A stretch of 64,000 bases of DNA from Simmondsia chinensis. Lineage: Eukaryota; Streptophyta; Magnoliopsida; Caryophyllales; Simmondsiaceae. The translations under genes and the position numbers were made by a program. Under the pieces are notes generated by a model. That model saw only the letters and a program-made list of their open reading frames with translations. It did not search any database and was not told where the DNA came from. Numbering within the stretch: the first letter of the stretch is position 1; each line of letters starts with the position of its first letter. Below are positions 5,683 through 64,000 of the stretch, one piece after another. The stretch is taken from contig JAGTTD010000002.1 of the NCBI GenBank assembly GCA_018398585.1, forward strand, positions 35,828,186 through 35,892,185, written 5' to 3'.

Positions 5683-6285
5683 TATAGTCATTTTACTTTT
5701 TATTATGTCTATACAGTTTCTCTATAATTAAAATAGTCTTAATAAAGTCTGATATTCAAATTAATCTTAATTTATAGTGGAAATTTGAAGCTTAATAAGT
5801 ATTTAGAAAGAGGCGTCGTTTACAAAGAGTATTGTTTCAATTTTTGTAGAAAATTAACATTTATTTTAATATTGTACTTGACTGATGGTTTATCTGCAGG
5901 AACTCAACCACTTCAGGTTGGGGGTCCCCGGAAACAGTCTCCTTTCCTGCTGGAAGGGGTAAGGCTGCGTACATCACCCCCCTAAGACCCTGCGTTATGC
6001 GGGAGCCGCAAGGCACTGGGACTGTTGTTGTTGTTGTTGTTGTATTGTACTTGACTGAAATGATTGTAATAGTATAAAACTAAATTGACACAATTAATAA
6101 TATAAAGACTAAATTGATTATAATAATGTAAAACTAAATTGATATAATTAATAGCACAATGACTAAATTACTATAATAAGTAAAATATAGAGATTAATGA
6201 TATAAATAATCTTAAAATTCAACTTTTATCGTATTTTAATCTTAAATATATTTGCACTATAATTAACTTTAAGTACTATCACGTT
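5683..6285. mobile_element. Decayed foldback-type MITE with a SINE tail inside
   Basis: The left side contains TATAGTCATTTTACTTTTTA and the right side contains several ACTAAATTGACACAATTAA-type segments ending near AGATTAATGATATAAATAA. These match, in inverted orientation, the arms of the clearer MITEs at 21748-22125 and 34782-35407. The left terminus appears disrupted by the tail fragment at 5620-5682. Boundaries are approximate. Confidence 0.45.
5886..6043 (+). mobile_element. Headless retroposon tail with perfect 15-bp TSD
   Basis: The segment carries the common tail (GGTTGGGGGTCCCCGGAAAC .. AAGGCTGCGTACATC .. GCGGGAGCC .. GGCACTGGG) and ends in TTG repeats. A perfect duplication, ATTGTACTTGACTGA, flanks it at 5871-5885 and 6044-6058, which shows it inserted by target-primed reverse transcription as a 158-bp unit. 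Instead of a 5S head it starts with about 30 unrelated bases. It could be a very short truncated LINE or a SINE with another head. Confidence 0.85.
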
Positions 6286-6375: not shown

Positions 6376-7385
6376 AAGGTAAATTATATATTAGTATCTT
6401 AAGATTTAAGGGTTCATTTACCAGACACTAATACAACCGAATTTCATTAGAAATCCAAAGTTAAGTGTGCTTGGGCGACAATAGTAGCAGGATAGGTGAC
6501 CTTCTGGGAAGTCCTCGTCTTGTCAATCCTATAAGTTTGGAGGTCCTTGGAAACAGTCTTTCGGCAGGGTTACACTTTGAAAGGGTAAGGCTGCGTACAT
6601 CCACCCCTCCTAGACCCCAGTTATGCTAGAGTCCTTGAGGCACTAGGTCTGTTGTTGTTGTAGTATCTTAAGATTTGATGTATTAATCTTAATTTATAAT
6701 TTTAAAAAAATAATTTTTAGTCAAAAATATAATATGTATTTAAAAAGATAGAACAAATAACAGTGCGTAAGAATGTAGAATAGGTCCGTATTCCAACTCT
6801 TTTTCATTAGCAATATCACAAAATTGCATTCCGTGAGTAGGACGAGGGAAATAGCGTGCGAATAGTGGAGTAATCAACAAATAACAAGAAGTTTATATTT
6901 TCTTATACTGTTATTCAAATCAATTAACTAAATACATATAACTTTTAAATTAAAAAAATATTTTACTAAAATTATAAACTAAAAAAAATAATACACCACA
7001 CCAAAAAGTAATGAATTACAATTTTAGTACTATAAGGTTTGGTATAATAATTTTTTAGTCCGTAAATTTTATAAAATAATTTATTGGTCCACGGGTTTTA
7101 GTATAAATATTTTTTAGTCCAACTTTAGGTAAAATAAAGTGCCGGAAAGACAATAAAACATTTATACCATTATTCAAAATGTTGTCATTTTTTCAAATTA
7201 AGTACTTTTCTTGAATTTTTTTATCTATTCACGTCAGCTTTTAGTCGAAATGCTGATGTCATATGCTTGAAATTGGACTAAAAATTAATTACACTAAAAT
7301 CATTGGACTAATAAATTATTTTATAAAGTTTCTGAACTAAAAAATTATTAAGGTACTGATGTGTAACTTACCCTACAATTTACCT
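6376..7385. mobile_element. Long-TIR foldback MITE hosting a 5S-SINE
   Basis: The left end (AAGGTAAATTATATATTAGT) and the reverse complement of the right end (AGGGTAAGTTACACATCAGT) are related. Extended inverted similarity also runs between about 7025-7120 and 7265-7365 (ATAAAATAATTTATTGGTCC against its inverse). Without the SINE at 6408-6660 and its duplicated target, the element is about 740 bp. A shorter relative lies at about 47270-47580. Superfamily is not assignable. Confidence 0.55.
6408..6660 (+). mobile_element. Full-length 5S rRNA-headed SINE (copy C)
   Basis: The first about 115 bases align over their whole length with plant 5S rRNA: TTTACCAGACACTAAT near the 5' end, AAGTTAAGTGTGCTTGGGCG (A box and intermediate region), and GGTGACCTTCTGGGAAGTCC (C box). 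Then come the linker CAATCCTATAAGTTTGGAGG, the common tail (GGAAACAG .. AAGGCTGCGTACATCCACCC .. GGCACTAGG) and TTG repeats. A perfect 16-bp TSD, TAGTATCTTAAGATTT, flanks it at 6392-6407 and 6661-6676. Pol III transcription from the 5S internal promoter and mobilisation by an RTE-type LINE are inferred from this layout. Confidence 0.93.
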
Positions 7386-11897: not shown

Positions 11898-14800
11898 AAA
11901 AAACAGAGAGAGAGAACAACTCATTGCTGTTTAGGTTGTTATTAGTACATGTGTTGCATTTTAGGTGCAGCATATTACAATGCTATTTCTGGAATAGTTG
12001 CCTCTCCTTCTAATGAATTCCTGTGTAAGGAATAAATTAAATATCAAATCCCCAGAATACCATTCAGTTTGAGTACAGTTGGTATTATGTTCTGGGGCTG
12101 CCCGGGAAAGGGAGAAAAGAAAACAGCTGTGTTGGGGATTGACTGCCCATTAAAGAACGATAGGATTCATTTTCTATTTGATTTATGCACTGCTTTTGTT
12201 ATTTTTGTTTTTTTATTTTTGACCTTAATGATGATCCTTGCTGGTGTATGTTTGTTTGTGTACTGATATCAAGGAGGCTTCTTTTCGTATTTTGATTTTT
12301 ATTGCACTTAGTTTAAAAAGAACATATTCAGCATATTTCTTAGGGTATTTGTTTAAAATTCCCTTGTTGCTAAAATTTTAAGTATTATATAGAAAGCTAC
12401 TGCTGTTCTAATGAGACCATTCGTGCAGGACTCCTTGAACCAGAAACTCAACAGGACAAAGCCCGAAAATCCGTGGTTTGTTTTTGGTATCTCCTATGCT
12501 GGAGCTCTGAGTGCTTGGTTCCGTCTTAAATTCCCTCATTTAACATGTGGAAGTCTTGCAAGCTCTGGTGTAGTTCTTGCTGTTTACGACTACACTGAGT
12601 TTGATCGACAGGTGATTATCATAAATGAAAGATTTGTCATTTTGCATTTTAGCTTTTCTCTTGCCTTTTGTTTTGTCGTTTAGTGATAGATCTGTTGAAC
12701 TCCGAAGTTAAATGTGCTTGGGCGAGAGTAGTACCATGGGTGACCTCCTGGGAAGTCCTCATGTTACACCCCTTAGGTTGGGGTTTCTCGGAAACAGCCT
12801 CCCTGCACCTGAAGGGAGAAGGCTGCGTACATCCACCTACCTAGACTCTACTTAGGTGGGAGCCCTTGGGGCACTAGGAATGTTGCTTTTTTTTTTTGGA
12901 TAGGCCTGTTGAACTTGCTCTTCATATAGTGATGTCCAGTCATTCCAAATTTTTTGCAAATTTACTTGAATGCAGATTGGTGAATCAGCTGGCCCAGAAT
13001 GTAAAGCTGTACTGCAAGAAATTACACAAATTGTTGATAACAGACTGGAATCAAACTCGAACGAGTTGAAGTCAGTTTTTGGGGCAACTGAGGTAGGAAT
13101 CACCTTTCCTTTTCCTATGATCAAACTAAGGGTCTGTTTGGCTTAGCTTAATTTGGGGAAAATAGTATTTTTTCTAGAAAAAAGCACTTTTCTAAAATTT
13201 AGAGAGTATTTGACAATCATGAAAAAGCATTTTTTTATTAAAAGCAAAAGTTGTTTTTCTGCCTTTAAGGAGAAGCAGAAATTTGGTGCTTTTCCTTTTA
13301 AACAGAAGCAAAAGCAAAAATTAAACAATTGAGAAAACTTGGTGTAGGTCTCCTAAACTTTGTTAATATATTTTTTAAAAAAATGTTAAATATGAAAAAA
13401 ATATTTTAATAATTAATAATATATTTATAATATTTAAAAAATATTTTAAATATTTGAAAAATATTTAATTTTTAAAAAAATTAAAATATTTTTCAAATAT
13501 TGAAAGATATTTTAGAAATATTAAAAAATATTTTAAAAATATTAAAAATTAGTTTAAGTATTTAAAAGATATTTTATATATTTGAAAAATATTTTAAATA
13601 ATGAAAAAATTATTTTAAATATTTAAAAAATATATTAAATGTTTGAAATGGTTCTTGGGTGATTGTTTCCAACTATAAAATACTTCTGTTAATGTCCTTC
13701 CGTTAATTTTATAGAAAAAAGCACTTTTTTAAATATTGGCCACACACTTATAATATTGCAATAAGGCTTCTTTACTAGTTGGGCCAAATACAAACTGCTT
13801 ATTTGAAATAACACTTTTGACAAAAGTGCTTTTACAAAAAGTGTTTCTAAAAAAAGTAATTTCTTTCACAGCAATGTCAAAAAGGTTAAATGCTGGAATG
13901 GCAACCTGCTCTTTCTTCATGATTGATCAAATTTTACAAAGTGGGAAATCCAAGACACCTTGGCTGCCCAGGGCATGAGCTTTCCCTCATTGTGAGCTTC
14001 AAGAAGGGGTGTATGCTTTTGTTTGATATGACCTATAGTTGGCTCTATATGGCTCTATAGTCTGTTTTCTTTTCTTCGCTTATTATTAGTACTCCCCATT
14101 AACTATTGTAATATATTCGTCATCAAAATTGTTGCAGCTCAAAAACGATGGAGACTTTCTGTATTTTCTGGCTGATGCTGCGGTGATAGCGGTAAGAATG
14201 TTCCATATTCTTATTAAGATCACCTCTGACTGTTTTATCAAGCCAATGGTCTCTCCCCGTTTGAAATTTGCAGATCCAATATGGAAACCCAGATAAATTA
14301 TGCCCTCCGCTAATTGAAGCAAAGAAGGCTGGTGCAGATCTGGTGGTATGTATATCTGCCACACTTTATTATTCTGTTTCATGATGCATAGTTTCTTGAA
14401 GGTTGCTCCCATGCTGGGTGCATTATTGTTAGTCCTAGTTAAGAGCGTTGTGATTAATTAAAAAAAAAAAAAAAAAAAAAGGAAAGAAAGTTGAGTTCCG
14501 GGGTTCTCATCTGTCATCAACATCTTGAACTTGGATTTTTGCTACAATACCAGGACTGAGATGTCTACTTAACTTTTTGCTCTATATTAGAGACACAAGT
14601 TGTTTCTCGTTATGATGTAGAATGGTGGAAGTGAAAGCAGTGTAAAAAAACTAAACCTGATATTAGGATCTCCAGTTGGCCCTGCCAACGAAGAAACTAC
14701 CTGAGAAACTATTCAGTTCAAGCTGCAGTTGATCCTTAGGTATGAGGAACTGAGGGCAGGACTTTTGAGGAAGGTGTTGATGTAGTCTCTGAGAACTAAA

Positions 14801-17828: not shown

Positions 17829-19000
17829 CTCAATGCTAAGTTGAGCTATGGATTCATATAATTGCCATTCGTAATATTATTACTAATGTGATGCACGTAG
17901 TGTAGAAAATTTGCCTTTCCATCACTACCTCAAGCACTCCTGCGGGATACCAATTTGCAGTATTGTATTGTTGTTGTTGAATTTATGTCTCAATTCCAAA
18001 ACGAAGGTTTATGATGGTAGTAAAGGGCCTTTCAGGCATGGGACCGTAGCCCAACCCCGTCTCCATTGGGTGCTGCAGGAGGCGAAGCCCCCTTGTGTTA
18101 TGGATTTATTTTTCTTGAGTCTGCCTGGTATACCCATATTTGTGAGGCTCTGATATTGTGCCTCTATATATGCATTGTAGGGTTTTTGTCCTGAGTTGCT
18201 TATATCCTCCATTTCATATTTCATAATGAAAGCTTTCTACTTCCGTCCATGGTATTTTTTTTTCATTTGAAGATTTTCCACGTAAAACTCTATATTTTCC
18301 ACGTAAATCTCTATAATACAGTAGTGAGATCGACTATGTGATACAGTGTGGAGTGTTGGCCTGTTGAACGGTATCATACTCAAGAGTTGAAGGTGGCGGA
18401 GATGAGGATGTTGCGGTAGATGTGTGGATATGATCAGAAATAACGTTATAAGAAATAACGTTATTTCTTATAAGAAATATGGACACACAAGGAAGGATAT
18501 GATCAGAAATAACGTTATAAGAAACAAATTGAGAATGGCTCCAATCAAGGATAAGTTGAGGGAGCAACGCTTGCTGTGGTTTGGCATGTTAGGACGAGAC
18601 CGACCACTGCCCCGATTAGGAGATACAAACAACTCCATACTACAAACGGGAGGAGAGGGTGAGGTAGGTCTAGGAAAAGCTGGATGGAGACGAAACGATA
18701 TGATCTGACCCACCTAAACCTAAATGAGGAGATGGCGTTAGATAGAGCTGAGTGGAGGGTTAGCATAGGTGTAGCTGATATAGCAGTTTAGAATAGAGGA
18801 GCACAATTAAGCTAGCACTAGCGACCTTAGGCTTATATGCATGCTGTTTGCTTATACTTGCTATTGCTGTGTGCTGGTGGATGCTTGTTGCTTGGTGCTC
18901 GCTACTTGTGCAGGGTTGTTGCCTTGCGGAGCTTTGTGCTTTGCGGCTTGTTGCTTGTTGCTTTATTGCTTTACAACTTATTGCTGCTTTATGCTCTCTC

Positions 19001-19037
<37 letters not shown>

Positions 19038-21739
19038 TGTTTGTCAAGGTGGGGGTCCTCGGACACAACCTCCCTTAGGGTAGCATCTTAAGGGGTAAGG
19101 CCGCATACATGTTACCCCCTACCCCCCCCCCCCCCCCCCCCCCCCGGGGGAAAGACCCGGCATTGGTAGGAGCCTTTGAGGCACTGGGTGTTTTGTTGTT
19201 GTTGTTTGTTTCTCTCTTCTCTTTTCATTTTCTTTCTAATTTGTTATTTGGTATATAAATCGAACCCAATTCTTGGGTATTTTGCATAACATGCAGGTTC
19301 GAAAATAGTATTCACAAATGGCTCACAAGACCCATGGCGACATGCATCCAAACAGACTTCATCTCCAGACAGTGAGTGTCAGTGTTTAAGCATCTTTTCA
19401 CAGTATAATTGTTTCATCCAGTCTCCATGCACACTGCAACAGATAAGCATAAATATGCTGTTTTTAATATATGATAACTCGACTTCGATTATCATATCTA
19501 AGAGGTTATCCATCATGTAACTAATGAATAGTAATGTTGATTTTGCACTGATCACAGAGACAAGGGGATGCTATAGTTTCAGATACTAACCAGTTATCAG
19601 AATACTATGATCTTCACTATCCTTACGATAAATTTTTCTTTTAAAAACATGTTGCTATGATGTGATAGATGCAGTGTCTATTCATCAAGCCAAGTAGAAT
19701 TAGTTGATGAGCAGAATGCAGTGCAAAACATAGTTACTTCGAATCTCCATTCCTACCTAAAGTACATGTGTCGATAAAGACGCTTAGAATGTTAATATGT
19801 GTGAAGCTACAAAACCATTTCTGGGTCTTGACCCATCAGTTTAAACTTTTGGGATTGTTTTTCCTTGGTATGATATGAGAGTATTGTTGAGCCAGAAGTC
19901 ACAAGTTCGAATGCTCACCCCCCACTCTTAATATTTCTGTAGAAGGTATGAAGTAGGCCTATGCATTATTCACGCTTCAAGCCCAATGGGCATTCACTTG
20001 AGAGGCATGTTAAACCATTTCTACACCTTCACTCATTAACTTAAACTTTTTGGATAGTTAGTTCCTTGACAGTATGACATTTAGACACTTCAAATTAGAT
20101 TGTGAAAAAAATCCTAGAAAAAAGCCGAGTTAGACACATACGCGTGTCCAACTTCAAACAGGAGTGCGAGCAACATAGGTGCAGACGTTTTGAAATGGAA
20201 AGCATTCTTATGAAACATGGTTTACAATAAACATGGATAACGTCCCGAGGTTACCATGATATCAAAAACATGTCCGTTTCATTAGGACATACGACGTGCA
20301 TGGTAAAGTATTGTTAGTGGTATGTCTCCAATGTGGATCTGCACTCTGTTGATGAACACTTTTGTTGGAAACTACAGTGCCGTCTTATATCATTACTTGC
20401 AATAACTGTGGCCATGGTACTGACCTGCGTGGCTGTCCTCAAGCACCTTTGAACCCTGAAGGTATGTTGCTCTTGTAAACGCTTCTTTTCTTTCTTTTTT
20501 TATTGTTACTTGATGCTAATGAAATTTTCCGGGCGCCTGAATAAATAGATGGATTTGTTTTATCCCAAATTTTTTTTTTTTTTTTTAAAGGATGAGTACA
20601 TAAAAATTATGATGTTCAATGCGAGGCTAAAGTGATATGAATAAGTGCTTGTTTGGACATGCTTTGAAAATAATTATTTCTTTTCAGAACCGCTTTCTTT
20701 ATAATTCACTCTCTCAAATTACAAATGCGGGCGTTTTTGTCTTGAATGTTCCTAATTCTCCTTCTGCTTATGCTTTGGAAGATGAGCATTATTTTTTCAC
20801 TTCTACTTAAAAGTAGAAAAATAGTTTTTGTTTTCACGTAAAAACATTTATGTATTTTGGCCAAAATACTCTGAAAAAAGAATTTTTAGTGCAGAACACT
20901 TTTTTAACCGCAAATGGTTGGCGGAACCGGCATGATTTCAGAACATGAGCATTCATTGTATATTGCTCGCCCAAAAAATTGTCGAGCCATGTCTTTCTTG
21001 TCTGAGCAAGCGCGTCATATAATGTTGCCATTTATTTGTGCAATCCTATGAATGAGGGCGTGAATGAAATAACTCAGTCTGGAGCTTGTTAGGTTTGGAT
21101 TCAACTTGCTTGCACTTATTGCATGCCCAAAACTCACCAAGCTGGGAGAATTGGACCTCGAGTGAGGCTCAGCATAAGTTCAACTCGGCTCAATTAAGCT
21201 TGAATTCAGCTCAGTGAATTTCAAACCAAGTTGAAAATCGTTCAGGCTCATTTATCCTCTTATCTGAGTTCACTGGGCTTATCAGCCTTGAGTTGGGTTC
21301 ATATCTACGCTCATTTAACTTTCTATTGAACTCTCCTTTGTTGAAGTATAAAACTATTTCTAGACCTTCACCCATTAGCTTAAGATTTTGGGATAATTGG
21401 TTCCTTGACATGGTATCAGAATCTTATTGACCAAGAGGTCAAGAGTTCAAATCCCAATAAACCCCACTTTCAATATCAACATAATTTCATACACATCAAG
21501 CTCAATGGGCATTTGTGTGAGGGGCATGTTATAAGTATACAGAGGTTGCTAGTTCATATTGTTCTTCCATTTGATATTGAATGCCATGCTTGCTAACAAA
21601 TCAATCTTCCCTTTCAGGCAATGACAAAAACTGCACGTCTCCTGATGCGGTTAACAAAGTGAGGCAACAAATCACTGAGCACATAGATCTGTGGTTATCC
21701 CAGTGCCAAGAAGCGGGTAGGGGATGGAGTTCTGTGTAA
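7858..21739 (+). CDS. Serine carboxypeptidase S28 family protein (prolyl carboxypeptidase-like), 12 exons
   Basis: Exons: 7858-8046, 9710-9835, 10526-10681, 12429-12611, 12976-13092, 14138-14191, 14274-14345, 17259-17467, 17611-17705, 19297-19371, 20378-20461, 21618-21739. All introns are GT..AG, all phases close, and the product is 493 residues, close to plant homologues as I recall them. The N-terminus has a hydrophobic segment (about residues 11-30), a signal peptide or anchor pointing to the secretory pathway or vacuole. The catalytic set of family S28 is visible: nucleophile Ser179 in FGISYAG, Asp412 in NGSQDPW, His438 in NCGHGTDLRG. Known members cleave after proline near the C-terminus of peptides; the natural substrate here is unknown. 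The first ATG of the conserved frame was chosen, following TATA at 7770. Introns are bloated by mobile elements (introns 1, 4, 5, 7, 9, 10, 11), but no exon is damaged, so the gene looks functional. Confidence 0.95.
8221..8513 (+). mobile_element. SMART/TRIM-like miniature LTR element, copy 1 (intron 1)
   Basis: Two related about 71-74 bp terminal repeats (8221-8294 and 8443-8513) share GTATAAAACCATT-type and CTTAAGCTTTTGGAAA motifs and end TTGACA. Directly after the first comes TGGTATCATAGTC, resembling the initiator-Met tRNA primer site. A purine tract, GTGAGGGGA, precedes the second repeat. A 5-bp duplication, TCATC, flanks the element (8216-8220, 8514-8518). At 293 bp with no coding capacity it fits the smallest plant LTR elements (SMART/TRIM class). 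Confidence 0.8.
12702..12898 (+). mobile_element. 5S rRNA-headed SINE, 5'-truncated (copy D, intron 4)
   Basis: It starts inside the 5S part (CCGAAGTTAAATGTGCTTGG), keeps the C box (GGTGACCTCCTGGGAAGTCC), then the linker CACCCCTTAGGTTGGGG, the common tail and a T-rich end in place of clean TTG repeats. Imperfect 17-bp duplications flank it: GATAGATCTGTTGAACT (12685-12701) and GATAGGCCTGTTGAACT (12899-12915). It lies in intron 4 of the S28 gene in the sense direction. Confidence 0.88.
13130..13890. mobile_element. AT-rich MITE-like repeat (intron 5)
   Basis: The segment begins AAGGGTCTGTTTGGCTTAGC and has an interior of TTTAAATATT-type repeats. It contains GAAAAAAGCACTTTT early and CAAAAGTGCTTTTAC late, in inverted relation. 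Related sequence recurs at about 44760-45480 and 59430-59770. The right terminus is not clear. It sits in S28 intron 5. Confidence 0.45.
15655..15790 (+). mobile_element. Candidate tRNA-derived SINE (intron 7)
   Basis: A tRNA-like A box (TTTGGTTCAGTAGTTAAAAC) is followed after about 35 bases by a B-box-like CATAGGTTAAGATCCCC, then about 30 bases and an A-rich tail from 15752. No target duplication was identified. It is in sense orientation inside S28 intron 7. Confidence 0.4.
16664..17157. mobile_element. hAT-like MITE, GAGCC/CGAGC-rich family (intron 7)
   Basis: Termini TAGGGGTGTAAATGA and the inverse of TCATTTACACTTCTA form a 15-bp terminal inverted repeat. Flanks CTAATGTT (16656-16663) and CTAATGCT (17158-17165) form an 8-bp duplication with one mismatch. 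The interior repeats GAGCC, TCGAGCTT and related words. 8-bp duplications and this terminus fit non-autonomous hAT elements. Relatives are at 36710, 41222 and 52104, with a partial copy near 30676. Confidence 0.8.
17790..17828. repeat. (CT)n microsatellite in S28 intron 9
   Basis: A run of about 18 CT units beginning near 17790. It yields no gene. Confidence 0.9.
18320..19209 (+). mobile_element. 5'-truncated RTE-type LINE with the SINE-family tail (intron 9)
   Basis: The left part translates in patches to the C-terminus of an RTE-clade reverse transcriptase (near VAEMRMLR, then KDKLREQRLLWFG), with indels and stops. About 350 bases on, after a T run (19008-19035), come GGTGGGGGTCCTCGGACAC, GTAAGGCCGCATACATG, GGAGCCTTTGAGGCACTGGG and TTG repeats, which is the tail shared with the SINEs. 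A C run (19123-19145) interrupts the tail. It is dead and inserted in S28 intron 9 in the sense direction. Confidence 0.8.
19800..20071 (+). mobile_element. SMART/TRIM-like miniature LTR element, copy 2 (intron 10)
   Basis: Terminal repeats of about 64-68 bp (19800-19867 and 20008-20071) share AAACCATTTCT and TTTAAACTTTT..TTCCTTG. A diverged primer-site region follows the first, and TTGAGAGGCA precedes the second, as a purine tract does. No coding region. It lies in S28 intron 10. Confidence 0.65.
21343..21540 (+). mobile_element. SMART/TRIM-like element, truncated copy 3 (intron 11)
   Basis: The first repeat (GAAGTATAAAACTATTTC to CCTTGACA) is followed by TGGTATCAGAATC, the best preserved primer site of the three copies, an internal part, and GTGAGGGGCA. 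The second repeat is cut off after about 15 bases (TGTTATAAGTATA). It lies in S28 intron 11, 78 bp before the last exon. Confidence 0.65.
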
Positions 21740-25100: not shown

Positions 25101-25348
25101 ATCAAAGAGGGCACCAACACCCCGTCATCAGATACCATTAGAATTTCGAAGTTAAGTGTGTTTAGGCGAGAGTAGTACCAGGATGGGTGACCTCCTGGGA
25201 AGTCCTTACCCTCAGGTTGGGGACACTGGAAAATAGTTTTTTTTTCAGGTTAACACACTGAAGGGGGGAGGCTGTGTACATCCGCTCCCCGAGACCCTAC
25301 GTAGGCGGGAGCCTTTGAGACACTGGGTATGTTCCTTTCCTTTTCTTT
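25101..25348 (+). mobile_element. 5S rRNA-headed SINE (copy F)
   Basis: Head starts GAGGGCACCAACACC, then GATACCATTAGAATTTCG, AAGTTAAGTGTGTTTAGGCG and GGTGACCTCCTGGGAAGTCC. The linker is short (TTACCCTCAGGTTGGGG), then the common tail and a T-rich end. A perfect 19-bp duplication, TTTGTTTCTCCCTTGAACT, flanks it (25082-25100 and 25349-25367). It belongs to head subfamily 2 with copies at 28596 and 42173. Confidence 0.92.
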
Positions 25349-27619: not shown

Positions 27620-29046
27620 GGAAAGAATTCACCCTCGAATTTGTCAATGATTCATTCTGATCATTCTCGCCAAGTTAGGGGTTGCATCACTCTCGCCAAT
27701 GTCTCCATTTTCGACAACGACTTCCAGGAATGGAGCACAAAACACACGACCCTCCCCGACACAATGTTGGGAGTTATGACATGCTTACACCCCTCATATA
27801 ACCCTTCTCAGGCTTCAAAGTCAGTCTTCCACTCACCTTCGTGCGAAATGCGACTTGAATAGTATCCATTCTTCATACCCAACTTGCTAGACACCATCGA
27901 ATTCTGCAATTGACATAGAAAGTCATCCATCCTTGAAACGGGCAATCGAAACTATACCATGATCTTACTGATGGTCCAGTTGTCAAGGCACATCCGCGAA
28001 GTCCCATTCTTTGTTGGCATTAAGATAGCTTATCCACTCTTCAGGCTCTCACGAATGAGGCCCGTGGCAAGTAGCTTCCAAACTTGGCGCCTAAGTTCCT
28101 CACACTCCATAAGGTCCATTCGATAATATGGCCCTAACGATAAGGCAACTCCTGGCACCCGATCAACCCAGTGCTGAGTGCCTTGTGATGAGGATAACGA
28201 GCTTCGCAACCTTTTTGGGCAGACTTCCTTTGACAAATTTTCCACCACTTCTGGTACTTTTCTTTGTTCCTCCTGACACTACTTGTCAATCAACACAGAC
28301 TCTACTCTGTCCACGCCAACTTCTTTGGCGATCATGGCGCAAGTCCGGCTGTTTGTGTTCTTGGCTACCACCGAAAGTGGTGCTTCATCCTTCTTAAGCA
28401 ACAAGACTATCTCCATGCCTTCAAACATGAAGCTATAGGTATTCCACTTTCCATCATGGGTGGCGCCTCTGTCGAATTGCCATGATCGTCCAAGCAACAA
28501 GTGACACGCATCCATGGTAACCATATCACACCATACCCCATCTCCATATTTCGCCCCAATTGAAAAGTTAACCATACGATGTTTTGATATGGTTAACCAA
28601 AGAAGGTACCAACACGTCGTCATCGGATCCCATCAGAACTTCGAAATTAAGCGCGCTTGGGCGAGAGTAGTACCAGGATGGGTGATCTCCTGGGAAGTCC
28701 TCACCTCAGGTTGGGGGCACTCGGAAACAACCTCTCTTCAAGGGTAATACCCTGAAAGGGAAAGGCTGCATACATCCACCCCCCCAAACCCTGCTTAGGC
28801 AGGAGCCCTTGTGGCATTGGATATGTTGTATACAATGTTTTGATACGGTTACCTGGTGTCCTTTACCGAGCCATGACAACTTGTAAGGGTTCGGATGTTC
28901 GAATGCTCCTCCGTCTTTAACCCTAGCTTCTGGACTGCTTCCTTGGAAATGGCGTTCTCACAACTTCCAGAATCAATGACTAGGCGACAATATCCTTCTG
29001 CCAATCGTACATGTCGTATGGAAAATGTTATCTCGAAGCCAATCAT
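27620..29046 (-). pseudogene. Gypsy pol remnant: protease and N-terminal reverse transcriptase
   Basis: On - from 29046, a retroviral-type aspartic protease region reads LVIDSGSCENAISKEAVQKL. After the SINE (28834-28596) the frame continues with DACHLLLGRSWQFDR and TYSFMFEG. From about 28248 comes the reverse transcriptase entry (near YYRMDLMECEELRRQV and LIRESLKSG), then a decayed palm start near 27850-27950 with stops. Frames change several times. The catalytic YxDD box is absent, so it cannot encode an active enzyme. Confidence 0.8.
28596..28834 (+). mobile_element. 5S rRNA-headed SINE (copy G) inside gypsy pol
   Basis: Head GAAGGTACCAACACGTCGTC, then CGGATCCCATCAGAACTTCG, A-box part AAATTAAGCGCGCTTGGGCG and GGATGGGTGATCTCCTGGGA. 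The short linker CCTCACCTCAGGTTGGGG and the common tail follow. Duplicated target ATGTTTTGATATGGTTA (28579-28595) versus ATGTTTTGATACGGTTA (28835-28851), one mismatch in 17. It splits the protease-reverse transcriptase remnant, so it is younger than the gypsy insertion. Confidence 0.92.
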
Positions 29047-29167: not shown

Positions 29168-29996
29168 TAGGGGTGGCAAATGTGTCATGTCGTGTGGTGT
29201 TCATGTTCGTGTTATGCGAAGGGTCTTAGAAATGAGGTCAACCCGAACCCAACCCATTTATTATACTGGTTAGGAACTCTCAACCCTGACCCAACCCGAT
29301 TGTTAAAGGGTAACCCACGGATTATCCATTTAATTATATCAATGATTTTTTTTTCCAATAAATACTTTTTTCTAACTTACAAACATGTCAATAATACATC
29401 TAATGGTTAATACCAGCAATAAATACATGACATACAACAATAACAATACCAGACCCAGTGCCTCAAGGGCTCCCGCCTAAGCGGGGTCTGGTGGGGGTGG
29501 ATGTACGCAGCCTTACCCTTTCAGGGTGTACCTCTGCCAAGAGGCTGTTTCCTAGGACCCCCAACCTTATAGGGTTGGCAACACGAGGACTTCCTAGAAG
29601 GTCACCCGTCCTGGTACTACCAATCTCCTGAGCACATTTAACTTCTGAGTTCTAATGGAATCCAGTGCATTAGGGCCTAGTAAATGAACCCTATAAGTTT
29701 CATTTATAATAAAGTGTCAAATTAACATTACTAAATATATTTAAATTATCTTATGTGAAATAGGTTACCCAAAATCTATATATAATAACAATAATGGACC
29801 ATTCAAATACCTAATATAATTATATAAACAGATCAAGCGGGTTAAAAACAGGTTAAATGGGTCAAATCCAAATACAACCCAAATACCTAAACGGGTTAAA
29901 CCGGTCGACCCAAATTTAACCCGACTTCAAAAACCCCAACCCAAACCCGCTACCTTCGTGTCGTATTATCGTGTAGCGTCAGATTTGTCAGGTCTA
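29168..29996. mobile_element. hAT-like MITE inserted in gypsy gag
   Basis: Ends TAGGGGTGGCAAATG and (inverse) TAGACCTGACAAATC, flanked by a perfect 8-bp duplication, GTTTGGTT (29160-29167 and 29997-30004). It carries a SINE at about 29435-29692. A second, SINE-free copy in opposite orientation lies at 42454-42990. Confidence 0.85.
29435..29692 (-). mobile_element. 5S rRNA-headed SINE (copy H), nested in a MITE
   Basis: Read on -: AGGGTTCATTTACTAGGCCC, CACTGGATTCCATTAGAACT, a damaged A-box region (GTTAAATGTGCTCAGGAGAT), C box GGTGACCTTCTAGGAAGTCC, linker CAACCCTATAAGGTTGGGGG, tail and TTG/TTA repeats. Head and linker match copy C (subfamily 1). No clean target duplication is visible, but the second MITE copy at 42454-42990 shows the same place without the SINE. 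Confidence 0.85.
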
Positions 29997-31671: not shown

Positions 31672-31995
31672 TAAGCTTTTCTAAATGATGTGAACTTCTA
31701 ATTCCCGTTCACCCCTTTCGGCGTCTCTCTCCCATCCAGCCAATTTCGCCAACTCATCAAAACCCGACACGCCAAATGATCCGAAAAAGTGTCAAAGGCG
31801 TGGCTACATCAGGACATAACTCAGACGAAAGGGTAAGAGTAGGAGGGAGGAGAATGATATCAACATGTTTCAGTATAAGACATCTAATTGATAAAATACT
31901 AAAAGGTGGACATCTTATTCTACATAGAAAAATGCCGTACACCTAACCTCATAATATAAATTTCTAAAAATTTTTTAGGACAATAAATACAAAGT

Positions 31996-34215
31996 TAGGG
32001 ATGACAATAGTGCAGTATCTGCCATTCAAATTTATACTCATACTCACCCTGAGATCCATGGGAAGGGGTAAAGCAGTTGATCCAGATGGCATCCCTGTAG
32101 AAGCGTGGAAGTGTCTTGAACAAAAGGGCGCCATTTGGCTGACTAACCTATTTAACCAAATCCTCCAGGGGGACAAGATGCCTGAGGAATGGAGGAAGAG
32201 TATATTGATACCGATATATAAGAACAAAGGCGACATTCAAAGTTGCGCCAACTATCGGAGTATCAAGCTAATGTGCCACACTCTGAAGTTGTGGGAACGG
32301 GTTATAGAGAGGAGGTTAAGGCAGCTGACTGAGGTGTCCGAGAATTAGTTCGGATTTATGCCCGGGAGATCAACAATAGAAGCCATCCACATCCTATGGC
32401 CTTCATATGGTCTTCATTGATTTAAAGAAGGCATATGATAGAGTGCCAAGGGAGGTCTTTTGGAGAGTTTTGGACAAGAAAGGCATCCTCGTACCATACA
32501 TCCGAGCCATCAAAGACATGTATGATGAGGCACAGACTATGGTGCGTACAGTGGATGGGGAGTCAGACGCTTTCCCGATAACAGTGGGGGTTCACCAAGG
32601 GTCTGCCTTGAGCCCCTATCTGTTCATTTTGGTTATGGACGAGCTCACTAGGCACATCCAGGAATGTGTAACTTGGTGCATGCTTTTTGCAGATGACATA
32701 GTACTGGTGGGGGAGTCGCGGGAAGAGATCAATGAGAAACTGGAAATATGGAGAGGGGTTCTAGAGTCGAAGGGTTTGCGACTAAGCAGAGCCAAGACCG
32801 AGCACATAGAACTCAAATTCGATCCATCTACCACGCCTAGCCAAGAAGAAGTCAAGATTGGACACGAGGCCATTTCGAAGACGGAAAGATTCAGGTATTT
32901 AGGGACCACGATACAGCACAACGGCGAAGTGGACGAAGATGTCAACTACAGGATCAAAGCAGGTTGGCACAAGTGGAGGATGTCCTCTGCGGTACTTTGT
33001 GATAGGAAATTCCCCTTGAAGCTAAAGGGAAGATACTATAAGATGGTGGTGCGGCCAGCCATGGCGTATGGGGCGGAGTGCAGGGCGATGAAACAACAGC
33101 ACACTCAGAAGATGAAGGCGGCGGAGATGCGAATGCTGAGGTGGATGTGCGGACACACAAGGAAGGATAGGATCAGAAACGACATCATAAAAGGCAAATT
33201 GGGCGTAGCTCCCATTGAAGATAAATTAAGAGAGCATCGTTTGAGGTAGTTCAGACATGTCAGAAGGAGACCGGACGAAGCTCCAGTCAGAAGATGGGAA
33301 CAGCCTATTACTACATTAGGCAGAAGAGGCAGAAGCAGACCGAAGAAGAGATGGCTTGAGACGATCCGAGAAGACCTCACCCACCTAAACCTTCGGGAGG
33401 AGATGACCTTAGATAGGGCCCAATGAAGGGCTAGCATAGAGGTATTAAATGACCCAGTTAAAATAGGGTAGTCTTTATCTCTATTTGTCTATCCCTTTCT
33501 ATCCCTATCTCATCCTCTCTCTCTCTCTCTCTCTCTTTTTTTTTTTTTTTTTTTTTATGGTGTGAGCTATACTTATGCTTTTTAATGTTTGCCAGGTCTT
33601 TTGGCTGATGGATGCAAGACCATCATCTTAGGCTGGGGGTCCTAAGAAACAGCCTTTCTTCAGGGTAGCCCCCTGAAGGGGGAAGACTGCGTACATCTAC
33701 CCTCCCCAGACCCTGCTTTTGGCGGGAGCTCTTGGTGGCACTGGATTTGTTGTTGTTGTTGTTGTTGTTGTATGAAGTTGATACCCATATTCGGATACAA
33801 ATATATATCCATACCTATACCCGTCCCATTACTTGCGGGTATCAAATGAATATCATTACTTGCCCCATACTCACTCTAATGTGAGTACTAAATGATTATT
33901 CATATCCACATATATTAATTATTTAATACTATGTTTAAAAATTAAATTATATTTTGTTATAAGATTGATAAATAATTTAAGTAATTAAATTTAAATACAT
34001 AATTTTTAATTACAAATTATTTAGATACAAAATAAAGCGGATATGGTGAGAATAAGACAGGACATGACAAGTATGGAGTGAGAAGGGGGTAGAACACTGT
34101 ACCAATACCCGCCTCATATGTCCTGTACCCGCTGCACGTTTTATTTATACCCATATCCACCTCAAATAGGTCGGATATCCGTGGATAATTGGTTTTACCG
34201 TCCCATTGCTATCCT
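31996..34215. mobile_element. hAT-like MITE split by a LINE
   Basis: 31996-32044 begins TAGGGATGACAATAGTGC, the terminus of the family seen intact at 48421-48878. 33775-34215, with GATACCCATATTCGGATAC, CTTGCGGGTATC and CCCATTGCTATCC, fits its remainder. The LINE at 32045-33770 separates the two parts. The right terminus is diverged and no 8-bp duplication is evident, so this is a moderate-confidence reading. Confidence 0.45.
32045..33770 (+). mobile_element. RTE-type LINE, 5'-truncated, with reverse transcriptase and SINE-family tail
   Basis: Reverse transcriptase motifs in order: [82 protein letters not shown], the active site LFADDIVLV, then [13 protein letters not shown] and [19 protein letters not shown], which are typical of the RTE clade. 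No endonuclease domain is present. Damage: stop at 32346-32348, a deletion after the FMPGRST motif that changes frame, stop TAG at 33247-33249 where the family has Trp, and a further stop near 33424. The 3' end has a CT/T run, then GGCTGGGGGTCCTAAGAAAC, CTGCGTACATCTACCCTCCC, GGCACTGGATT and TTG repeats ending at 33770. That tail is shared with the 5S-headed SINEs. Confidence 0.88.
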
Positions 34216-34781: not shown

Positions 34782-35407
34782 AAGGGTTTTTTATGCCAAA
34801 GGTCCGTGAACTTTATCCATTGTGTTAATTTAGTCCTTGTACTTTTAATTGCGTCAAATTATTCCCTGTACAATTTAAAATGTGTCAATTTAATCTGCTA
34901 TTTCTCTACCTTTATTGGCCTAGCCTTGCCTTGCTTTTATACTTATTTGCTCTCTTGTTGATAGGCTGCCAGACTTTACTGACACTGACAAGCTTTTCAG
35001 GTTGGGGGTCATAGGAAACGTCCTCCTTTCTGGGCAGCCCCCGGAAGGGGGAAGGCTGCATATATCTACCCCCAGACCCTGCCTGTGCGGGAGCCCATTG
35101 AGGCACTGGGTGGTGGTGGTGGTTGTTTGTTGTTGTGAGAAAAAAATATGTTAAGTTTTTAATGAAATTTTTAATGGTTTGGCCACGAATTGGGTTAAAT
35201 TAAGTAAACATATGAATTTATAATAAGTTACTTGTATCTAACATAATTTTACAATTCAAAATTACGTCATTCACATAACTTAAATTGGACCAAAGAACTA
35301 AATTAACACATTTTAAATTATTTAGGAACTAAATTGACACAATTAAAAGTACAAGGACCAAATTGACACAGTGGGTAAAGTATAGGAACATTCGGCTTAA
35401 ATAAACC
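34782..35407. mobile_element. Foldback MITE with about 110-bp arms, hosting a retroposon tail
   Basis: The left arm (about 34782-34905: GGGTTTTTTATGCCAAAGGT .. TTAATTTAGTCCTTGTACTT) and the inverse of the right arm (about 35280-35407) agree over most of their length, e.g. AGTCCTTGTACTTTTAATTG against GGTCCTTGTACTTTTAATTG. Long arms suggest a Mutator-type or foldback element. A retroposon tail at about 34994-35136 lies inside. Confidence 0.65.
34994..35136 (+). mobile_element. Headless retroposon tail (copy J)
   Basis: Common tail only: GGTTGGGGGTCATAGGAAAC, GGGGGAAGGCTGCATATATC, GCGGGAGCCC, GGCACTGGG and an irregular TGG/TTG repeat end. No duplication found, so the start is approximate. Confidence 0.7.
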
Positions 35408-35592: not shown

Positions 35593-35739
35593 TTTAGGCT
35601 GGGGGTCCTCGGAAACAGCCTCCTTTCAGGGTAGTCCCCTGAAGGGGGAGGGTTGCGTACATCTACCCTCCCCAGACCCTACTTTTACTGGAGCCCTTGG
35701 AGGCACTGGGTTTGTTGTTGTTGTTGTTGTTGTTGTTGT
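35593..35739 (+). mobile_element. Headless retroposon tail (copy K) with 16-bp TSD
   Basis: Starts TTTTAGGCTGGGGGTCCTCG, ends in about nine TTG units. Duplication ATGGTTTCGCTTTGAT (35577-35592) versus ATGGTTTCAGTTTGAT (35740-35755). Its sequence is closer to the LINE tail at 33620-33770 (GGCTGGGGGTCC, CATCTACCCTCCCCAGACCC) than to the SINE tails, so it is probably a 147-bp extreme 5' truncation of the LINE. Confidence 0.85.
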
Positions 35740-37171: not shown

Positions 37172-38120
37172 CGGGTGCCTGTGGTTAGTGGAGTGGGTAT
37201 ATGGGTATGGTTATTCATTTAATACCCATGTTGGCTGATAGAGCAACTGGCAAGTACGAGTATGGGGAGGCACCCTGCCCCTTACCCGGTCTATCCTATT
37301 TCCATTCCTACTCTCAAAGCAAAAGAAGCATAGGCAATATGGACTAAAGGTCTATATGTCGAGATGAGCTTAGGACACCAACTGTGTCTCGTTTAAGTGC
37401 ATGCAATAGATGGCTGATGGTCAAACCTCATTTGTCCAGCGAAAGAAGGGACGAGGATGGTTTTTTTTTGTAATATGGAACGCCAGGCGAGCTCAATTGA
37501 CTCTAGGATCGGATTTGATGGCAATTTGCACCCCGGCGCTTTATTGAGCGGAAACATAATATCCATGTGCTTTGGAGAAATGTTGAGTAGCTGCGGGTGC
37601 AATAATTAGTTTTAAGTAACCTTGTGCTCAAAGAAAAAGAAATACCTAATCTGATAAAGATAATTTAACCTAAAAGACAATAGATCAAGTTGAATGAAAC
37701 AATAATCCTAGGAGCCACCTACTTCTAGTTAGGATACTACTAACATTTCCTAATAATATGAAATATTAAAAGTTACAATAATCATAGTTCTTTTTAAGTT
37801 TGTTGGGCAATTGTCCTCAAGTACAATTCAGCTGAGGATATTTAACAATTTGGCATTTTTGGTATGGTGAAAGCTATGGTACTGTATGTGTTCCAATGAA
37901 ATGTGCATATTGAGGTCGTTATGAACATCTTGTCACGTCATGCTACACAAGTTGAGCTTTTTAATTCAGTGATCACTGCTAAGTGTTGCAATTTTCCTCG
38001 TTAACTTTGGTTTCTGTATTTGTTTGTATCTTCGAATTGTATGAAATGTCTCTTGTATCGTATCTGAAATGCATCTGTTTTTCACCATTATACTGAATGG
38101 CTATAATATGCTTTTATATT
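37172..38120. other. No feature recognised
   Basis: Sequence upstream of the ABCF copy, AT-rich toward 38000, ending in a pyrimidine-rich splice-acceptor-like stretch at 38110-38122. No other gene seen. Confidence 0.4.
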
Positions 38121-38150
38121 CAGCCATTTGTTGACTTCATTGGCTGCGCA

Positions 38151-40284
38151 ATGGGGAAGAAGAAGTCTGATGAAGCCGGTACTAATATGAAGGCTCAAAC
38201 AAGTGGAAAAGACGGAAAGAAAGAGAAGCTTTCAGTTTCAGCTATGCTTGCTAGCATGGACGAAAAACCCGATAAAGCAAAGAAAACATCCATGTCTAGC
38301 AAGCCTAAACCCAAAGCCGCTCCTAAAGTGTCATCTTACACTGACGGGATTGATCTTCCCCCTTCTGATGGAGATGATGATGATTATGGTTCTGAATATG
38401 AGCAACAACTGAATGATGTCCAGAAACGTCGAGCTTTGGACCAGAGGACTGAGGCCAAGGCACTCGAGACTTCTATAACTGACAAGAAAAGAAAGACATG
38501 CTAGCTGCTCAGGTTGCCGAGCAGGTCAAACGGGAAGCGCTTAAGGATGATCGTGATGCTTTTAGTGTCGTTATTGGTAGCCGGATTCAGCCCTTGATGG
38601 TGGAGATGAAGCCGATGCTAACATCAAAGACATCACGATAGAAAACTTCTCGGTGTCAGCTCGAGGAAAAGAACTCCTGCAGAATGCATCACTAAAGATA
38701 TCCCATGGGAATAGATACGGTTTGGTCGGACCAAATGGTAAGGGGAAATCAACGCTTTTGAAGCTTCTGGCATGGAGAAAGGTTCCTGTACCTAAGAATA
38801 TCGATGTGCTTCTCGTTGAACAAGAAATAGTTGGCGATAACAGAACCGCACTTGAAGCTGTTGTTTCCGCTAACGAAGAACTGATGAAACTCCGAGAGGA
38901 GACTGCGTCTTTGCAAGATTCATCTGAAGAAGATGACGGTGGAGAGAGACTTGCTGAGGTGTATGAGCGGCTGCAGCTTTTGGGCTCCGATGCTGCTGAA
39001 GCTCAGGCATCAAAGATTCTTGCTGGGTTAGGATTCACCAAGGATATGCAGAGCCGCCCCACCGTGTTGTTTAGTGGTGGATGGAGAATGAGAATCTCAT
39101 TGGCTCGGGCGCTTTTTATGCAACCGACACTTCTGCTTCTAGATGAACCCACAAATCATCTAGACCTAAGAGCTGTTCTTTGGTTAGAAGAGTATTTATG
39201 CCGTTGGAAGAAGACACTCATTGTCGTCTCTCATGACCGAGACTTCCTCAATACCGTTTGCAATGAAATTATCCATCTTCATGACATGAAGCTCCACATG
39301 TACCGAGGAAACTTTGATGATTTTGAAACCGGGTATGAATAACGGCGCAAGGAAATGAACAAGAAGTTCGAAGTCTACGACAAACAACTCAGAGCTGCAA
39401 AAAGGTCAGGTAATCAAACCCAGCAGCAGAAAGTCAAGAAACGAGCAAAGTTCGTTGCTGCCAAAGAAGCCTCAAAAAGTAAATCAAAAGGTAAAATTGT
39501 TGATGACGACGAACCATTGCCAGAGGCTCCAAGAAAATGGAGAGATTACACAGTAGAGTTCCACTTCCCAGAGCCTACAGAGCTCACCCCACCTCTCCTT
39601 CAGCTCATTGAGGTCAGCTTCAGTTACCCAAACCGACCCGACTTCAAGCTATCGAATGTTGATGTGGGTATTGACATAGGAACCCGTGTAGCCATCATAG
39701 GGCCCAATGGCGTCGGGAAATCTACTCTACTTAACCTCCTTGCCGGTGACTTATCTCCTACCCATGGCGAGGTTAGGAGGAGTCAGAAGCTGAGAATCGG
39801 AAGATACTCCCAACACTTCATTGATCTCTTAACAATGGATGAAACCCCGGTTCAGTACCTCCTCTGTCTGCATCCAGAACAAGAAGGGATGAGCAAGCAA
39901 GAGGCTGTAAGAGCGAAGCTCGGGAAATTCGGGCTCCCCAGTCATAACCATCTGACACCTATAGCAAAACTATCTGGAGGGCAGAAAGCGCGAGTTGTAT
40001 TCACTTCAATATCGATGTCAAAACCACATATTTTGTTGTTAGATGAGCCAACGAACCACTTGGATATGCAGAGCATTGATGCTTTGGCTGACACGCTTGA
40101 CGAGTTCACCCGTGGGGTGGTGCTGGTTAGCTATGATTCGCGGTTGATTTCTCGGGTTTGCGAGGATGAAGAGAGGAGTCAGATATGGGTGGTTGAAGAT
40201 GGAAGTGTGAGGACATTCCCAGGAACATTTGAAGAGTACAAAGAGGAGTTACAGAGAGAGATCAAGGCTGAAGTTGATGATTGA
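38151..40284 (+). pseudogene. ABC transporter F family member 4-like (GCN4 type) pseudogene, intronless
   Basis: Family members are soluble twin-ATPase proteins linked to translation control, not membrane transporters. The copy runs from MGKKKSDEAG to the end EIKAEVDD, covering the whole protein (about 710 codons). NBD1: GPNGKGKST, FSGGWRMRIS, LLLLDEPTNHLD, VVSHDRDF. NBD2: GPNGVGKST, LSGGQKARV, ILLLDEPTNHLD. Damage: a frame shift near 38485 (about 10 bases short in a Lys/Glu/Arg-rich stretch, giving stop 38502-38504), a second -1 shift near 38585, a TAA at 39340-39342 where the family has Gln (tyE-Q-RRKEMN), and the NBD2 H-loop reads LVSYDSRL, with Tyr instead of the catalytic His. The last two are compatible with C-to-T changes. 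The 5' leader seems to keep a splice acceptor, so it may be a decayed gene copy rather than a processed one. Sequencing error is a weaker alternative because four independent lesions are needed. Confidence 0.88.
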
Positions 40285-40557
40285 GTTTAATGTTATACGA
40301 CGCTGTTGTATTGTAAGATTTTGCCTCTATCTTCGCTTTTGTTTTTTAAAGGGTTTTTTTTTTTTTACTTAGAATCGCCTTCAAAAATAGTCATTTTTTA
40401 CTTAATTGAAGCAACATTTCAAATTTTCAGAAAACTGCCTTCGAAAGTTTAAACATTTTAATCAATCACCTACGTTCTCGCCATTAGTATTCCGTTTGGA
40501 TTATACGTGTGATTTTGCTTGTGTTATATATAAAATCTAGAAAATATAACATACGTT
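40285..40557. other. 3' flank of the ABCF copy
   Basis: AT-rich; contains a T run at 40357-40366. Nothing else recognised. Confidence 0.4.
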
Positions 40558-41838: not shown

Positions 41839-42172
41839 AGAAAAAGCGCTAAACTAATTTTTTTTTTTTCTTTTTCACAAGTCTAACGTTCATTTTATTA
41901 CTAAATTTACGTATAAACTATTTAAAAGGAAGAGATGAAGAAAAGTCAGAGATTGATTAAGCAATACCTAGGATGAGCGTTAAATAAAATTATTTTAGTT
42001 TATAATTTTTGTAAAACAATTTTTTGGTCTAAAATATTACATATATTTAATAAAATAGCTTAAATAATGATGTTAAATGGTGTAAAACTTGTTATTATGT
42101 ATCGGCAAACCCACTATACCTTCTCTATTCCCCACGTCCCACAACTGAACCACACTACTGTGACACTTCTAA

Positions 42173-42416
42173 AGCAACATTCACAGTGCCCCAAGGACTC
42201 CCGTCTAAGCAGGGTCCGGGGGGTGAATGTACGCAGCCTTCGCCCTTCAGGGTGCTACCCTGAAGAGAGGTTGCTTCCGAGAACCCTCAACCTGAGGGGT
42301 GCAACACGAGGATTTCCCAGGAAGTCACCCATCCAGGTACTACTCTCGCCCAAGCATGTTTAACTTTGAAGTTTTAATGGGATCCGGTGCTTGTGTGTTG
42401 GTACCCTCTTAGGTAT
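42173..42416 (-). mobile_element. 5S rRNA-headed SINE (copy L)
   Basis: On -: GAGGGTACCAACACACAAGC, ACCGGATCCCATTAAAACTT, AAGTTAAACATGCTTGGGCG, GGGTGACTTCCTGGGAAATC, CTCGTGTTGCACCCCTCAGG, then the common tail ending GGGGCACTGTG with weak TTG repeats. Perfect 14-bp duplication TGTGACACTTCTAA (42159-42172 and 42417-42430). The 5S head runs to its last bases (CTCGTGTTGC). Confidence 0.92.
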
Positions 42417-42453
42417 TGTGACACTTCTAAGATAGATATTTTACGCTTTAGAT

Positions 42454-43058: not shown

Positions 43059-43130
43059 TCCGTTGTAGTCTAGCTGGTTAGGATACTCGGCTCTCACCCG
43101 AGAGACCCGGGTTCGAGTCCCGGCAACGGA
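43059..43130 (+). tRNA. tRNA-Glu (CUC)
   Basis: 72-nt cloverleaf without intron. The acceptor stem 5' strand TCCGTTG pairs with CAACGGA. D arm GTCTAGCTGGTTAGGATAC (A box). The anticodon stem-loop CTCGG-CTCTCAC-CCGAG has anticodon CTC at 43093-43095. T arm CCGGGTTCGAGTCCCGG (B box). A TTTTTT Pol III terminator follows at 43140-43145, and CAA, typical of plant tRNA starts, lies at 43056-43058. Confidence 0.97.
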
Positions 43131-43139
43131 AACCCCTGC

Positions 43140-43275: not shown

Positions 43276-43467
43276 CAACAACAACAATCACAGTGCCTCA
43301 AGGGCTCTCGCAAAAGCGGGGTCTGCGAAGGGTAAATGTACACAGCCTTCACCCTTCAGGGTGTGAAGCTGAAGAGAAGCTGTTTTCGAGGACCCCCAAC
43401 CTGAGAGGAAAGTCTTCGTCGCCTCATGGAGACTTGTGAGCAATGAGTTGTGAGTAATATGTCATAA
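43276..43467 (-). mobile_element. Retroposon with the common tail but a different head (copy M)
   Basis: Flanked by AAAAGACTTACGTATA (43260-43275) and AAAAGACTTACATATA (43468-43483), one mismatch in 16. On - the 3' 125 bases are the common tail (CAGGTTGGGGGTCCTCGAAA .. GCACTGTGATTG and TTG repeats). The first about 66 bases (CTCACAACTCATTGCTCACA, AAGTCTCCATGAGGCGACGA) are not 5S and match nothing else in the window. Likely a template-switch chimera or a third head type. Confidence 0.85.
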
Positions 43468-63399: not shown

Positions 63400-64000
63400 T
63401 CATGGGCGACTAATTATGACAGGTTTCAACCCCATCCCTTCATTTGTTTTCAAAACCAAATCTCTAGTCAGGCCTTTAGTAAACGGATCCGCTAGATTCT
63501 GACAGGTTCTCACGAAGTCCACAGTGATAACACCTTCCCGAATAAGGTGTCTCACCATACTATGTCTCACACCAATGTGTCTGGACTTCCCATTATACAC
63601 TTCACTGTATGCTTTAGAAAGCGTAGCCTGACTGTCACAATGGATAGAAATAGGAGAAATCGGCTTCGGCCACAAAGGTATCTCATACAAGAGATCCTTT
63701 AACCACTCGGCTTCTTTAGCCGCAGAAGCAAGAGCTATAAACTCCGCCGCCATTGTAGAGTCAGATATGCAAGTTTGTTTCTTGGAACCCCAAGAAACCG
63801 CACCCCCACCAAACAGGAATACCCATCCACTCGTGGATGCATGATCCTCCACATCGGAGATCCAACTTGCATCAGTATATCCTTCCAAAATAGGAGGATA
63901 CCCAACATAATTGAGACCATAGTCCATAGTCTTCTTTAGGTACTTCAGTACCCGGTGCACTGCATTCTAGTGCAACTTACTCGGTTTGCTGGTATACCTA
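63400..64000 (-). pseudogene. Copia pol C-terminus: RNase H domain, broken
   Basis: On - the last about 200 codons of a Ty1/copia polyprotein: HRVLKYLKKTMDYGL, GYTDASWISDVEDHASTSGW, SWGSKKQTCISDSTMAAEFI, HCDSQATLSKAYSEVYNGKS, RHIGVRHSMVRHLI, NLADPFTKGL. The RNase H acidic residues (D in GYTDASW, E in AAEF, D in HCDSQ) are kept. Just upstream (about 63966-63968) a TAG interrupts the frame where the family has Trp (H-W-NA). The rest of pol lies beyond the window. Confidence 0.88.

Follow-up and report, generated by a model that had tools for sequence, protein, structure and literature searches.

Six 5S rRNA-headed SINE copies in one window

The window, by which we mean the whole 64,000-nucleotide stretch of Simmondsia chinensis DNA analysed here, contains an ABCF4-like host gene, a tRNA gene, the remains of LINE retrotransposons and six short elements with a head resembling 5S rRNA (Table 1). 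The ABCF4-like gene, whose best named matches among the 120 listed are from Nepenthes gracilis and Ancistrocladus abbreviatus (89%), contains an in-frame stop codon TAA (39340-39342) and shifts frame between 38504 and 38581. The tRNA gene (Rfam, 66 bits) lies about 640 bp from SINE copy 6, and near the end of the window there is an open frame that reads like the end of a Ty1/copia polyprotein.

Table 1. Positions of the SINE copies, LINE-derived sequences and other features in the window
Feature	Position	Strand	Remarks
SINE copy 1, type A	6408..6660	+	16-bp perfect target duplications, 6392-6407 / 6661-6676
SINE copy 2, 5'-truncated within the 5S part, junction of copy-6 type	12702..12898	+	17-bp duplications, 2 mismatches
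SINE copy 3, type B	25101..25348	+	19-bp perfect duplications
SINE copy 4, type B	28596..28829	+	22-bp duplications, 2 mismatches, 28574-28595 / 28830-28851
SINE copy 5, type A	29435..29692	-	Rfam 5S match
SINE copy 6, complete 5S 3' end GTGTTGCACCCC, then tail TCAGGTTG	42173..42416	-	14-bp perfect duplications, 42159-42172 / 42417-42430
LINE, 5'-truncated, broken reverse transcriptase	31968..33764	+	RVT_1, E 5.2e-25, in 32380-33249
Older LINE remnant of the same type	18553..19206	+	peptide matches weak, E 0.056 and 0.29; 3' region alignable with both other LINE copies
Headless tail	5884..6038	+	16-bp perfect duplication; 21 extra bases before the tail match at 5907
Headless tail, truncated near the head-tail boundary	35594..35729	+	flanked by a near-repeat of 16 bases, noted by eye; not in the computed list
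Headless tail	43276..43409	-	preceding bases resemble the LINE 3' region of locus L030
Headless tail	34986..35111	+	tail match
ABCF4-like host gene	38097..40284	+	
tRNA gene	43059..43131	+	
Open frame resembling Ty1/copia	63400..63966	-	

An earlier reading of the window, made from the sequence only, had proposed that the six elements are SINEs headed by 5S rRNA, and position, alignment and Rfam matches all confirm this. The copies, 197-258 bp in length, were each found where they had been placed, and they align as a 5S head, a linker and a shared 3' tail. The Rfam 5S model (RF00001) matched five of the six heads (copies 1, 3, 4, 5 and 6; E 2.6e-9 to 1.2e-3), reaching 57.1 bits for copy 6, 56.9 for copy 4 and 44.4 for copy 3 against a curated cut-off of 38, which copy 5 just reaches (38.1) and below which copy 1 falls (35.6); the 5'-truncated copy 2 gave no Rfam 5S match. 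Target duplications with scores of 11 to 19 were found around five of the six copies, and a comparison of its flanks revealed none around copy 5. Among 300 random flank pairs, which served as the null, the 99% score was 9 and one pair reached 18. Of the five long duplications reported previously, those of 16, 17 (with two mismatches), 19 and 14 bp were correct, but that of copy 4 is 22 bp long with two mismatches instead of 17 bp with one; similarly, the start of this copy had been placed correctly, but its proposed end at 28834 runs into the duplication, the element itself ending at 28829.

The flanks of copy 4 resemble antisense Ty3/gypsy pol. Joining them at the duplication yielded an open frame that reads like Ty3/gypsy pol; other join points, however, gave frames equally long or longer, so the open frame by itself proves nothing and we discarded it as a sign of the empty site. 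No empty site was detected for the joined flanks of five copies in the window and the retrieved loci.

The SINE tail is shared with a LINE

The tail had been described as a fixed segment of about 125 bp belonging to the SINE. We found that it is indeed common to the headed copies, but also that it occurs without a head at ten further places in the window, two of which are the 3' ends of LINEs. The longer of these LINEs has its reverse transcriptase split over two ORFs with a stop in the C-terminal motif, and the SINE tail, here terminating in (TTG)n, makes up its 3' end (33623-33764); its 5' part (31968-32348) gave no Pfam match, and no target duplication was found around the element. Among the 120 of its 1,505 relatives that were listed, the named ones are nearly all from plants, the best being from apple (62-65%), and one is labelled Vibrio. 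The 3' end of the older remnant (19044-19206) is likewise the SINE tail, here with an expanded C tract.

A C-terminal LINE peptide taken from upstream of the tail at locus L030 was searched against the window and the retrieved loci. It matched 320 bp ahead of the tail at 33623 (E 7e-6) and, more weakly, 420 bp ahead of that at 19044 (E 0.056 and 0.29), with further matches to L030 again, L076 and L029 (E 0.62). It also matched at 40421-40486 of the window (E 0.001), where no tail lies, and this match was taken as chance. The three LINE 3' regions, two from the window (at 33.3 and 18.6 kb) and that of L030, can be aligned from the end of the ORF through the tail, and the SINEs join this alignment at AGGTTGGGGG. 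Judged from these alignments, the SINE tail is the 3' end of a LINE in the same genome, and a candidate for the partner LINE lies within the window itself, a relationship absent from the sequence-only reading. Since the tail belongs to the LINE, tails without a head are to be expected, and we counted 14 of them in the window together with a 210-kb sample of the genome (described below); inspection by eye upstream of 13 of these (all except that at window 45945-46056) revealed no tRNA-headed sister SINE. We call the putative partner an RTE-type LINE on the basis of its motifs, which we take to be of the RTE type, its TTG ends and the insertion signature. The tail of the SINE may also resemble the conserved 3' domain of Au SINEs and of the Angio-SINE superfamily (Seibt 2020), for which the 37-bp Angio-domain is diagnostic. 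For plant RTE LINEs, (TTG)n ends have been reported (PMC3747384).

Copies throughout the genome have been mobilised as units

A DNA search of the whole genome (831 Mb, 35 contigs) with copy 1 gave 8,654 candidates, the best 40 of which were scored; all 40 cover almost the entire query, and apart from the window copy, which is among them, the 39 others match at 85-87%. A parallel DNA search with a type B copy gave 5,873 candidates, of which again the best 40 were scored, and ten loci were cut out. The scored matches are dispersed over many contigs. All 39 retrieved A copies contain head, linker and tail, a result in which full length is partly built in, since the copies were retrieved as the best matches to whole-copy queries. 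Divergence from the A consensus ranges from 2 to 12% with a median of 5.9% (41 aligned sequences, the 39 together with copies 1 and 5).

The view that the elements were mobilised as units, previously based on the window copies, is borne out by the genome-wide loci. In addition to five of the six window copies, duplications bracket the entire unit in 28 of the 39 A copies at a score of at least 10, the highest score in 39 mismatched flank pairs being 9, and in eight of the ten B loci at a score of at least 11; 11 of the A copies have no duplication of score 10, and none was found at the B loci L073 and L076. Duplications of 5 bp and LTR structure flanking the 5S part had been named as an observation that would speak against a SINE; the well-scored duplications of the A copies (score at least 10) instead span 10-24 bp. 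The 5S part starts at the 5' end of the element, adjoining the duplication.

Usual separation of head and tail had been named as a second such observation. We therefore give the counts from an unselected sample, consisting of 21 stretches of 10 kb each at round-number positions (210 kb in total), which contained four headed copies (L032, L033, L037 and L068), a head fragment on its own (L038) and tails on their own at four places, so that the tail is present at four of five 5S-like matches; together with the window, 10 of 11 5S-like matches carry the tail. Four copies in 210 kb suggests about 16,000 headed copies per genome, the Poisson limits lying at roughly 4,300 and 40,500. As a separate observation, the same SINE insertion with its duplication is present near both ends of one contig (L018 at C34:41.05 Mb and L019 at C34:0.20 Mb), reflecting either a segmental duplication or an assembly artefact.

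The copies fall into at least three types

The single layout that had been ascribed to all copies did not hold up; instead, at least three types can be told apart, namely type A (copies 1 and 5), type B (copies 3 and 4) and the type of copies 6 and 2. In the last, the 3' end of 5S rRNA is retained in full; A has an altered version of it and B a shortened one. Consensus A comprises 253 bases, with a 5S-derived part of 126 bases before a tail of 127 bases, and the B consensus has about 114 bases of 5S-derived sequence before a tail of 145 bases including a C tract. The 78-base promoter cores of consensus A and B are identical (0/78 differences) while 11 of 122 aligned tail sites differ (core versus tail, Fisher P 0.0075), and the first 28-29 bases of the two differ so strongly that they hardly align. 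Identical cores beside diverged tails would follow if multiplication is confined to source elements whose promoter works. Regarding the 3' terminus, the reported TTG repeats are typical of A, but four of the ten B loci (L070, L071, L073 and L078) end in TTGCTTTT or TTCCTTTT; (TTG)n ends are seen in the A consensus and the LINE copies, and B ends are mixed.

A variable C tract of up to about 30 C, sometimes followed by runs of A or G, occurs at one and the same tail position in type B copies (L069-L073, L075-L078 and L032) and in the tail of the LINE remnant at window 19044-19206. At L073, a partial second B head of about 40 bases (G000:C2:29109625-29109664) directly precedes a full B copy and is possibly part of a dimer. 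In single-sequence folding, the A head adopted a three-armed, 5S-like shape, and two B heads gave no three-armed shape. The difference between A (AGGGUU:AACCCU) and B (GAGGGU:ACCCUC) in helix I seemed to be a compensatory, covarying change, but arms combined across the types pair equally well and we rejected it.

The head derives from 5S rRNA and its promoter boxes are nearly intact

The host 5S array, whose repeat unit measures about 435 bases, was located near 4.69 Mb of contig C8, and its best genes are 97% identical to our 5S query. Alignment of the SINE head with host 5S, a check suggested by the sequence-only reading, was carried out with the first of the five array genes read (L079), and revealed 3 differences over the 78-base core for consensus A and likewise 3/78 for consensus B; the core of copy 6 differs from the same gene at 11 positions. 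The promoter boxes had been called nearly intact, and with box limits as generally given and box letters taken from the SINE consensus we observed 1-4 changes in the 17 bases of the A box, 0-4 in the 12 of the intermediate element (IE) and 0-3 in the 26 of the C box. At the C box, consensus A and B both read AGGATGGGTG, the canonical plant C box (PMC10853983), and copy 6 reads TGGATGGGTG. All five host genes read (L079-L083) have AAGATG there, four of them as AAGATGGGTG and L083 as AAGATGTGTG. At a further position, A, B and copy 6 have TACC in common and all five host genes have TACT. From the Rfam matches and the likeness to the host array we conclude that the SINE head derives from 5S rRNA; the tRNA-derived head of typical plant SINEs is absent and the 5S head identified by Rfam stands in its place.

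Insertion sites carry an upstream T-stretch

In the published plant pattern, a T-stretch precedes the target duplications of RTE LINEs and their SINEs by about ten bases, and the duplications begin with T followed by A; legume SINEs with an RTE partner end in Tn and their LINEs in (GTT)n (PMC13295347). For comparison with this pattern we used the 41 of 57 elements that have a duplication score of at least 11, less L019, which repeats the L018 insertion, and L069, whose copy is also contained in L037 (itself not entered), leaving 39 with the types pooled. T accounts for 112 of the 195 bases at positions -12 to -8 before the duplication, against a background of 0.369 in the rest of the 30-base flank excluding -14 to -6 (P 4.5e-9). 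This five-base window was picked after viewing the base table; the rotation control takes the best of all five-base windows, and none of 20,000 random flank rotations reached the observed T level in any of them. Similarly, TTT is present at -15 to -6 in 22 of 39 flanks as compared with 16, 11 and 13 of 39 in three windows farther out. Duplications begin with T in 54% of cases, with TA in 9/39 and with TT in 8/39, boundaries beside TTG repeats being ambiguous. Thus, the insertion sites carry a T-stretch like that of the published plant RTE pattern, and the TA part of the pattern is weak.

Origin and mobilisation of the family

Taken together, the data make us confident that the family is a high-copy plant SINE in which the 3' end of an RTE-type LINE follows a nearly complete copy of the 5S gene, and that it is probably transcribed by RNA polymerase III and mobilised by the RTE machinery. 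Transcription would be driven by the internal promoter boxes (A, IE and C), and the RTE LINE protein would recognise the tail of the SINE RNA and insert it by target-primed reverse transcription. On how the family arose our belief and doubt are evenly balanced: it may have been an independent plant invention, founded when a reverse transcriptase engaged on RTE LINE RNA switched to the 3' end of a mature 5S rRNA. Source elements would afterwards have altered their 5' ends and tails, where the lineages drifted, and kept the 78-base core with the C box AGGATGGGTG, the host having since changed to AAGATG. The junction in copy 6, where GTGTTGCACCCC passes directly into the LINE-like TCAGGTTG, fits a jump to the end of mature 5S rRNA.

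Other origins of the same arrangement have to be weighed against this composite SINE. The 5S parts could be those of Cassandra-type LTR elements or fragments of them, Cassandra being a known 5S-bearing plant retrotransposon, a TRIM that is like our family in its 5S promoter but is an LTR element with the 5S sequence inside the LTR (PMC10853983). In the copies described here the 5S part is at the 5' end of the element beside the duplication, with the LINE 3' end after it, and the well-scored duplications (10-24 bp) are longer than those of Cassandra. The target duplications of Cassandra are short, with a fixed length of 5 bp. We regard this explanation as very unlikely. That scattered 5S retropseudogenes came to lie beside a LINE tail by chance would agree with the tail-less fragment L038; the junction, however, recurs within each type and one duplication brackets the whole unit, leaving hardly any room for such coincidences.

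More thought is needed for a 5S-headed SINE moved by another LINE, such as L1, with its tail merely inherited. It would accommodate the T runs in place of TTG at the end of four of ten B loci, and p-SINE and Au-like SINEs, too, end in T and have no known partner according to PMC3747384. T ends, on the other hand, fit RTE as well, given the Tn ends of the legume RTE-paired SINEs (PMC13295347), and another LINE, which we consider improbable, is argued against by the T-stretch of RTE type some ten bases before the insertions (types pooled) and by the tail common to the SINEs and LINEs of the same genome. A somewhat better case, still an unlikely one, can be made for several independent captures of 5S by the LINE tail in place of one capture followed by 5' change: A and B differ strongly in their first 28-29 bases, and the 3' end of 5S, complete in copy 6, has been altered in A and is shorter in B. 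Against this stands the TACC shared by A, B and copy 6 in the face of TACT in the five host genes, which suggests a single origin of the core. We prefer the one composite SINE of 5S gene and RTE-type tail, and compare it below with systems already described.

Relation to known elements and significance

In combining a 5S head that has an internal Pol III promoter with a LINE-derived 3' end, the family is like the SINE3 class of 5S rRNA-derived SINEs (Kapitonov and Jurka 2003, as cited). The 5S-headed animal families in Table 1 of PMC3747384 have CR1, RSg-1 or BovB tails, whereas here the host is a flowering plant and the tail plant RTE-type. The same table contains a family with the same pair of modules, Ped-1 of the springhare, a mammal, in which a 5S head is joined to a BovB tail of the RTE clade; likened by description, Ped-1 is taken as an unrelated, convergent case. 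From its plant-type 5S head and tail, the Simmondsia family most likely originated independently of animal SINE3.

Within plants, the head sets the family apart from the tobacco TS SINE, which is a tRNA-type plant SINE. The two are similar at the other end, as TS, by its description in PMC3747384, has its 3' end in common with an RTE LINE (RTE-1_STu) and ends in (TTG)n. The legume SINEs, again likened by description, are alike in the RTE LINE 3' end and the T-stretch signature and end in Tn (PMC13295347). Plant SINEs are described as tRNA-derived in the review PMC9033089, 5S-headed SINEs have been published for vertebrates and insects (PMC3747384, PMC10886601) and for Aspergillus (PMC5063351), and the plant case named beside SINE3 in PMC3095306 is Cassandra. 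No plant 5S-headed SINE was among the matches listed from the open literature, covering titles and the beginnings of abstracts, with subscription papers and repeat databases outside this scope; an existing name for such a family is possible.

If our reading is true, flowering plants would join the hosts of 5S-headed SINEs, and the short list of plant SINE/LINE pairs, of which a 2013 review gives three (PMC3747384), would gain another. The family would also be a clear case of module swapping, in which a LINE tail has been joined to a different promoter head, and would provide a natural test of which parts of the 5S promoter stay constant when they drive a mobile element.
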